A DNA stretch of 64,000 nucleotides from Halobaculum marinum (GTDB taxonomy: Archaea > Halobacteriota > Halobacteria > Halobacteriales > Haloferacaceae), in assembly GCF_029338555.1 (NCBI RefSeq), contig NZ_CP119989.1:2728001-2792000 (forward strand). The letters are read 5' to 3'. The first letter of the stretch is position 1. Every line of letters begins with the position of its first letter. The position numbers were made by a program, and so were the translations under genes. Below, piece by piece: positions 24,537 through 38,363 of this stretch. Under the pieces are notes generated by a model. It saw only the letters and a list, made by a program, of their open reading frames with translations, did not search any database and had not been told where the DNA came from.

Positions 24537-25082
24537 TCAGAAGCCGAACGTCTCTGGGTCGTCGGCGAGTTCCGCCTGCACCGCTTCGTGCAGTTCGCCG
24601 ACCGGCGGCGTGTCCCGCGTCGGGTCGAGCCAGTGCTCGCCGAGCCACCGGTACCGAATCTCGCCGTCCTCGTCGACGAGGAAACACGAGCGCCGCGACC
24701 GGCGGAACACGCCGAACGTCCGGTAGGCGACGCCGAACGCCTCCGAGACCGCGAGGTCGGTGTCGGCGTACAGCGGGAAGCCGAGGTCCAACCGGTCGAT
24801 GAACCGCCGGTGGAGTCGGGGACCGGACTTCGAGACGCCGACGACGTTCACCTCCTCGCCGGAGGCGAACCAGTCGAAGTCGCGGAAGGTGCACCACTCC
24901 TCGATGCAGTCCGGGCTGAAGTCGACGGTGTAGAAGCTCAGGAGGACTGGCTTGTCGAGCAACTCGGCGAAGTTGGTCTCACGCGTCTCTCCCTCGGGGG
25001 TGACGAGTGTCGCCTCGAACGCCGGTGCTCGGTCGCCCACGTCCAGCGGCTCTGCCGGCGGCGGTGTGTCCGAGGGTGGCAT
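24537..25082 (-). CDS. Peroxiredoxin-like (BCP/PrxQ-type) redoxin
   Basis: A 181-residue AhpC/TSA-fold protein. The presumed peroxidatic Cys59 and a second Cys64 lie in FSPDCIEEWC, five residues apart as in the BCP/PrxQ class. The usual Thr of the P-x-x-x-T-x-x-C motif is replaced by Ser (Phe-Ser-Pro). It should reduce peroxides with thioredoxin. A proline-rich N-terminus of about 10 residues precedes the domain. It is convergent with the lipoate-ligase gene, with 6 bp between the stops. Confidence 0.85.
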   Translation of the reverse strand: MPPSDTPPPAEPLDVGDRAPAFEATLVTPEGETRETNFAELLDKPVLLSFYTVDFSPDCIEEWCTFRDFDWFASGEEVNVVGVSKSGPRLHRRFIDRLDLGFPLYADTDLAVSEAFGVAYRTFGVFRRSRRSCFLVDEDGEIRYRWLGEHWLDPTRDTPPVGELHEAVQAELADDPETFGF

Positions 25083-25163: not shown

Positions 25164-25864
25164 TCACAGGTTTGCGGGGTTGGCCATCCCCTCCTTGACG
25201 CCGACGCGGACGAGCGCGGCGTTCACCGGGAACGCCGCGAGGTAGCCGACCGACAGCGAGAACGCCAGCGCCCCCCAGAACAGCAGGTCGCCGACGTGGG
25301 CGTCGGCCGCGAGCAGGAGGTCGGTGCCGATGGCGGTCACTTCCATCACGGTGATCGACGGCGTCTCACTGTAGAACGCGTCGACGACCGCCTCACGGAG
25401 CCCCACGCCCTCCTGCATCAACGGCCCGACGGTCAGCCCGAAGCCGAACAGGTACGCGAACCCGAACGTCGCCGCCGCGACCCACCCGACCGCGAGGCCG
25501 AGGACCCCTGCGCGAGCAGAATCCCGGTGACCTCGCCGGCGCCACAGCCGGAGTAGCAGTGGGCCGTCGATCGGAACCCCCGCCGCACCAGCGAGTCCTC
25601 GGGGATCTGCGTGCGCCCGGCGTACCAGTACACCGCGAGGCCGAACGGTCCGGAGTAGACGACCGTCAGGGCCCACACGGCCTTCATCAGCGACGGGAGC
25701 GCCTCGTTGCGGGCTCGGAGGTCCCACAGCAGGACGCCGACGGAGACGGCGACGACCACCGCCCACGCGCCCATCACGACCGGGTCCGACAACACCGGGA
25801 CGAGTACCTCCCGAGCCGGTTCGAACGCCCGTTCGAGTCGTGCGACGAGTTCGCTCACCTGCAT
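25164..25864 (-). pseudogene. DUF4396 family membrane protein, split by a single-base frameshift
   Basis: The first part (25864 down to about 25509) gives [14 protein letters not shown], two to three helices and HCYSGCGAGEVTGILLAQ, the DUF4396 signature with conserved His and Cys. The frame then runs into a non-native tail. The rest (GVLGLAVGWVAAATFGFAYLFGFGL through PVNAALVRVGVKEGMANPANL) continues in the next frame. Adding one G to the four-base run on the minus strand (C-run 25505-25508 on plus) restores one 233-residue protein. Either the gene is broken or the base is a sequencing error; both halves look unmutated otherwise. The function of DUF4396 is unknown. Confidence 0.82.
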
Positions 25865-26003: not shown

Positions 26004-26858
26004 ATGAGCGCAGACAGCGACTCCGACCTCCGCGTCGGGGCACACGAGTCCATCGCCGGCGGCACGTTCAACGCCGTCGACGCGCTGGTCGAGGACGGCG
26101 GCAACTGCGGCCAGATCTTCACCCACTCCCCGCAGGTGTGGCAGGACCCGAACATCGACGACGACGAGGCCGAACGCTTCCGGAGCCTGAGCGACGAGCA
26201 CGGCGTCGGGCCGTGGGTGATCCACTCGTCGTACCTCGTCAACCTCTGCACGCCGAAAGACGGCCTCCGCCAGAAGTCGATCGACTCGATGCAGAAGGAG
26301 GTCGACGCTGCCGACAAACTCGACATCCCGTACGTGAACGTCCACCTCGGCGCCCACACCGGCGCCGGCGTCGAGCAGGGGCTCGACAACGCCGCGAGCG
26401 CGCTGGACGAGTTGGACATTCCCGAGGGCGTCACCGTGCTCGTCGAGTCCGACGCCGGGTCGGGCACGAAACTCGGCGGCGACTTCGAGCACCTCGCGGC
26501 GGTGCTGGAGCGCTCCGAGCAGGATCTGGACATCTGTCTCGACACGGCCCACGCGTTCGCCGCCGGGTACGACCTCTCGACGCCCGAGGGCGTCGACGAG
26601 ACGGTGGCCGAACTCGACGAGGTCGTCGGACTGGAGCACCTGGAGTGTGTCCACCTCAACGACTCGAAGCACGCGTGCGGGACGAACAAAGACGAGCACG
26701 CCCTCATCGGCGAGGGACTCATCGGCGAGGACGGGATGCGCGCGTTCGTCAACCACGACGACCTGCGCGACGTGCCGCTCGTGTTGGAGACACCCACCGA
26801 GGACGGTAAGGGCTTCGCGTGGAACATCCAGCGCGTGAAGGACCTGCGCGAGTACTGA
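26004..26858 (+). CDS. nfo: Deoxyribonuclease IV (endonuclease IV)
   Basis: A 284-residue AP endonuclease that cuts 5' of abasic sites in base-excision repair. The TIM-barrel family motifs are present: [31 protein letters not shown] and [16 protein letters not shown] with GEG. They supply the His, Glu and Asp ligands of the trinuclear zinc site. The start at 26004 ([16 protein letters not shown]) is chosen from the family N-terminus. It follows logically from uracil removal by the glycosylase at 19205. Confidence 0.96.
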
Positions 26859-36981: not shown

Positions 36982-38363
36982 ATGAGCCGCGAGCGTCTGC
37001 TCGGCGTGTGGCGACGCGTCCTCGCGCTCGCGTGGCCGGTGATGGCCGAGCAGACGTTCCGCACGGCGATGCGGACGACCGACATCGTCGTCACCGCGCA
37101 GTTCTCCCCCGCCGCCGTCGTCGCCATCGGGCTCGCAGACCTGTACGCCAGGTTCCCGCTGCGCATCGGCCTCGGTCTGGGGGGCGGTGCCATCGCCCTC
37201 TCCAGTCAGGACACCGGCGCCGGCGCCGACGCCAACCGCGACGAGGCGGTGACGCAAGCAGTGGTCATGGGCGCGCTCGCGGGCGTCCCTTCGTTCTGGT
37301 CGGCCTGTTCCTCGGCGAACCGATCATCGCGGTGCTCGGCGCCGACGACCGGACGGCGCGCCTCGGCGGCGAGTACCTCGCCCTCGTGTTCGCGACGGCG
37401 CCCGCGCGCCACGTCGCGCTCATCGCCGCCCGGTCGCTCCAGGGGACCGGCGACACCCGCACCCCGATGTACGTGAACGTGCTGGCGAACACGCTCAACA
37501 TCTCGGGGTCGCTCGTGCTCGGCCTCGGCTTGTTTGGCGCCCCACGCCTGGAGATCGTCGGCGTCGGGGTCGCCACCGCCGCGGCGAACGTGTTGACCGC
37601 CGGCCTGCTCCTGCTCGCGATGGCGACCTCGTGGTCGGACGCGAGTCTCGTCCGCCCGCGCGACACCGTGATCGCCCGCCAACTCGTGCGCGTCTCGACC
37701 CCGCGCGTCTTGGAGGGGTTCTCGGCGACGGTCGCGGAGTTCCCGTTCAACGCGCTCCTGCTCGGCTTCGGCACGCCCGTCAACGCCGGCTTCCAGATCG
37801 GGCGCCGGATGTACCAGCAGGTGACGGGGCCGCTGTCGCGCGGCTACAACGTCGCCGCCAGCGTCGTCGTCGGCCAGTCGCTCGGCGACGCCGACCCCGA
37901 CGGGGCGCGGTACAACGGCTGGGCGGTGACGGGACTCGGCCTCGCGACCGTGGGGGTCCTCGGCGTCGCGCTCGTCGTCGCCGCGCCGGCGTTCGTCTCA
38001 GTGTTCACCGACGACCCCGCGACGGTGCCCCACGCGGTCGCGTTCGCGCGCGTGTACGGCGCGACCGCCGCGTTCCTCGTCGGCTACACGGTACTGTCGG
38101 GGGCGCTCCAGGGTGCCAGCGAGACGCGCATCCCGCTCGTCGCCCGGATCACCGGGACGTTCGGCGTCCTGCTCGGGACGACGTACCTCGTCGGGGTCGT
38201 GTTGGGGTACGGCCCCCTCGGCGCGTACCTCGGCGTCGGCCTCCAGTACGTCTGGATGACGTTGGTCGTCGTCGCGGGCTTCCGCTACACGGGGTGGGCC
38301 TCGCGCGCGGCGGCGATGATGGCCGAACGAGGGAGCGGCGAGGGCGAAGTGGAGGGAGCCTGA
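36982..38363 (+). pseudogene. MATE family efflux transporter, split by a single-base frameshift
   Basis: The N-terminal part from ATG 36982 (MSRERLLGVWRRVLALAWPVMAEQTFRTAMRTTD) reads normally to VVMGALAGVP. It is then lost at the CCC run 37287-37289; the remainder (FVLVGLFLGEPIIAVLGADDR onward) continues in the +2 frame to 38363. Adding one C restores a 460-residue, 12-helix multidrug and toxin extrusion protein. The downstream half is otherwise intact (RSLQGTGDTRTPM and LSGALQGASETRIPL, the repeated MATE motifs). It is a real mutation or a sequencing error. Confidence 0.88.

Follow-up and report, generated by a model that had tools for sequence, protein, structure and literature searches.

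The window analysed here, 64,000 nucleotides of the Halobaculum marinum genome, holds a DUF4396 gene whose reading frame is broken by a single missing base. The frame is genuinely broken in the deposited letters, the break is private to this genome, both parts of the gene retain their coding constraint, and a second single-base break lies close by in the gene for a MATE-family transporter. As the explanation for the missing base we favour, tentatively, a residual consensus error of the assembly, with a very recent null mutation about equally likely. The finding is ordinary either way, amounting either to a dispensable gene that was lost very recently or to a small sequencing error.

The features of the locus are collected in Table 1. 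The first-pass annotation had described two halves of a DUF4396 protein in adjacent frames, and this was confirmed by profile matching together with the identity of the halves to the proteins of intact congeners (79-86% to residues 1-119 for the N-terminal half, 84-94% to residues 121-233 for the C-terminal half). When compared on its own with PF14342, the C-terminal half scored 79.7 bits (E 3.5e-22), passing the curated cut-off of 27 bits, while the N-terminal half gave a weak match of 14.6 bits and the intact orthologue of Halobaculum gomorrense (G002; 233 residues) scored 105.3 bits (E 4.7e-30). These E-values for the C-terminal half and the intact protein exclude chance. Shifting the C-terminal half one residue out of register reduced its identity with six intact congeners to 7-9%. 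In DNA alignments with congeners a single one-base gap fell at 25504-25509 in all four tested, which bears out the annotation's placing of one missing base in the C run. The gene thus occupies two adjacent frames instead of one continuous one, and its current product is a minus-strand open reading frame of 143 amino acids (25433-25864) that carries the N-terminal half.

Table 1. Features of the broken DUF4396 gene and its surroundings (positions in the window), with the congener sites that lack the gene.
Feature	Position	Strand	Remarks
DUF4396 (PF14342) gene, whole	25164-25864	-	Two halves of one protein in adjacent frames
DUF4396 N-terminal half	25508-25864	-	119 residues from the ATG at 25864; HCYSGCGAGE motif
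DUF4396 C-terminal half	25164-25505	-	Adjacent frame; 113 residues and stop at 25164
Site of one-base loss	25505-25508		Four C in a row (plus strand)
Out-of-frame tail and premature stop	25433-25507	-	Closes the current product
AhpC/TSA redoxin gene	24537-25082	-	Flanking; site marker in congeners; PF00578 E 5.4e-23
AP endonuclease 2 family (TIM-barrel) gene	26004-26855	+	Flanking; site marker in congeners; PF01261 E 4e-46
MATE-family transporter gene	36982-38348	+	Frame interrupted at about 37285-37291, where one base is missing; orthologue PF01554 E 2.5e-32
DUF4396-less sites: G004 C9, G005 C1, G008 C1, G010 C3	L169, L172, L166, L170		

Comparison with relatives, in a search of 60 genomes, recovered the DUF4396 gene as one uninterrupted, full-length frame from six congeners, at 81-89% identity, and from nine more distant genomes, at 59-72%. 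G005, a seventh congener, has a diverged copy (60%). The window's own genome was the only one of the genus to give a match in two pieces. Because six congeners and nine distant genomes keep the gene intact, the break, which as in a frameshift pseudogene lies where orthologues are open, is both private to this genome and recent. No relative was found in viral contigs. Outside the genus, a diverged DUF4396 copy was likewise returned as two weak pieces (C10, 60007-60521) from G053, a genome of another family that is incomplete, at 63%.

Both halves have evolved as parts of a working gene would. Measured against congener orthologues, dN/dS was 0.13-0.18 for the N-terminal half and 0.10-0.29 for the C-terminal half, both near 0.15 and in the same range as for intact gene pairs, and no second stop or indel was seen in the gene. 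The relaxed selection and further decay of a frameshift pseudogene are thus missing here, and the substitution pattern points to ordinary purifying selection that acted until very recently or is still acting.

The DUF4396 break is not an isolated case, since a second single-base break lies 11.8 kb away, in the MATE gene. This is likewise a -1 break in the context of a G/C run, visible as a frame jump against G003, G006, G007 and G008, and it too is private to this genome, the gene being intact in those four congeners and in G009, a set that includes the closest congener sampled (G008). Both known breaks are deletions, and none is an insertion. The earlier statement that there was no other damage therefore holds for the DUF4396 gene itself but not for its surroundings.

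To gauge the quality of the assembly, we aligned 473 kb of this genome with congeners, taking in the window and its flanks as well as three 100-kb areas far away from it, and scored gaps of one or two bases at which the substitution phase jumps in one genome and not in the other, a procedure that recovered 74% of simulated single-base deletions. Frameshifts backed by more than one relative numbered two, those in the DUF4396 and MATE genes, although in the three distant areas only one or two relatives were comparable, which left scarcely any chance of multiple support; calls from these areas look, from their sequence context as judged by eye, like gene edges. Since only two multiply supported frameshifts were found in 473 kb, the assembly is not grossly bad: for the most part it is clean, and its two deletions are of the error type. 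Frame-break calls at 848, 51579 and similar positions were dropped as gene edges or as supported by a single relative, and the substitution-phase scan took the place of a tblastn frame-break scan in which antisense and over-extended open reading frames produced many false calls. The sequencing method of the strain was not found in published papers, and plasmid searches matched genus neighbours only.

The other assemblies that were scanned differ from one another. That of G003 is grossly bad: it yielded 14 calls in 204 kb, of which 12 were single-base deletions and six were multiply supported. In its C1 stretches L039-L043, L094-L098 and L118, genes lack single bases at many G/C runs, a pattern that looks like sequencing error, and gene calls in this assembly need care. 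No multiply supported break was found in G006 (533 kb) or G009 (279 kb), and because of this, real fresh frameshifts are judged rare in Halobaculum.

We infer, at a confidence just short of even, that the cell has the base and only the consensus lacks it. It would have been dropped at a short G/C run in a stretch of 71% G+C, and the cell itself would keep an ordinary, vertically inherited, all-helical membrane protein, with nothing lost. A consensus error, which we hold at that same guarded level, is favoured because dN/dS is kept at about 0.15, relatives are intact and a second -1 break lies nearby; because both cases are deletions, the same type of error that is plain in G003; and because fresh frameshifts are rare in the genus. 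There is precedent in Halobacterium, where on re-sequencing single-base losses in poly-C and poly-G tracts were judged likely errors (PMC11834397). The likeness to the residual deletion errors of a high-G+C assembly such as G003 lies in the loss of a base at a G/C run within a constrained gene and in the second case nearby, although such errors are far commoner in G003 than here. Among the DUF4396 membrane proteins of Halobacteria, those of H. gomorrense and other congeners agree with this one in sequence, length, HCYSGCGAGE motif and chromosomal site; the difference is the missing base, which divides this gene between two frames. Three points argue against an error. Two breaks in 473 kb is a low rate at the sensitivity of the scan, one that real fresh mutations would explain just as well; a run of 4-5 bases is shorter than typical homopolymer trouble spots; and the absence of the gene from its site in four congeners makes a true null tolerable.

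The last point is also what gives weight to a very recent null, in which replication slippage, in nature or in culture, would have taken one base from the short G run, and which we rate somewhat below even. The null would persist since the DUF4396 gene is dispensable. In G004, G008 and G010 the redoxin and AP-endonuclease genes adjoin with no DUF4396 gene between them, and the AP-endonuclease gene of G005 has no DUF4396 gene beside it either, the diverged copy of that genome being located elsewhere. Because the gene is cleanly absent from the site in four congeners, including the closest sampled, its loss is tolerated and a true null mutation is believable. G008 and this genome fall together, with support 83, in an unrooted tree of five genes in which the other absences are scattered; if ancestral, the gene must then have been lost three times or more. 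The pattern shows DUF4396 to be a membrane protein that Halobaculum can do without and has kept only patchily. It may even be that the gene is being lost repeatedly in the genus: the fresh frameshift of this strain would represent the initial stage, while the closest of the sampled relatives, and two or more further lineages, would already lack the gene cleanly. We lean against this fuller account.

A genuine null is also in keeping with the lack of any other multiply supported break in the 473 kb of this assembly, with the MATE gene being plausibly dispensable as well, and with a real, strain-specific frameshift reported for laboratory lineages of Haloferax (PMC11834397). As in young frameshift pseudogenes, both halves are recognisable, close relatives carry intact orthologues and other congeners lack the gene; unlike them, this gene shows no further decay. 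Given that and its unchanged dN/dS, a null must be very young, and the MATE null likewise, and the lack of multiply supported fresh frameshifts in G006 and G009 also tells against it. The product of a null would almost surely be inactive: a short foreign tail would follow about 120 native residues, and the last three membrane helices would be missing. In a model of the H. gomorrense orthologue (all-helical, pLDDT 86) helix 92-121 ends where the break falls, and helices 126-151, 156-186 and 194-220 lie beyond it. A product cut near residue 120 would very probably be non-functional. The DUF4396 and MATE genes of this genome should not be called lost without reads.

Restoration of the frame in some cells or ribosome passes, whether through slippage of the tract (phase variation) or through programmed -1 frameshifting, is very improbable: the two frames do overlap at the G run, where a one-base slip would join them, but the tract has only 4 bases, in a window that holds 486 C/G runs of 4 or more (the longest has 7), and reads differently in relatives, and the codons GCG CAG GGG TCC hold no in-frame slippery heptamer X_XXY_YYZ, while the RNA downstream folds no better than shuffled sequence (z-score -0.03) and so offers no stimulatory structure. 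Recoding shared with orthologues, which the annotation had named as something that would overturn its reading, was rejected, the shift being absent from congeners, whose orthologues are open in one frame. Of the three origins that it had proposed, null mutation and sequencing error are thus both viable, about equally, but phase variation, which calls for a long simple tract, lacks support.

Searches with the intact orthologue gave no convincing relative, whether by fold among solved structures (best E 0.11, TM-scores up to about 0.33 among the matches listed) or by profile among PDB sequences. In several other Halobacteria the gene has copper and metal genes nearby, its neighbours including an ArsP-type permease with a YHS/TRASH domain and a P-type ATPase in Haladaptatus (L046), a multicopper oxidase in Halogeometricum pallidum (L049), a TRASH-domain regulator and a Cys-rich DUF326 protein in Halomarina oriensis (L047), and DUF302 and SHOCT proteins in Haloferax prahovense (L050). 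In Acidihalobacter, DUF4396 stands at the edge of a copper-resistance cluster (PMC7760498). These few loci hint at a role in the handling of metal, perhaps copper, and the metal-gene neighbourhood provides a lead for a family without an assigned function.
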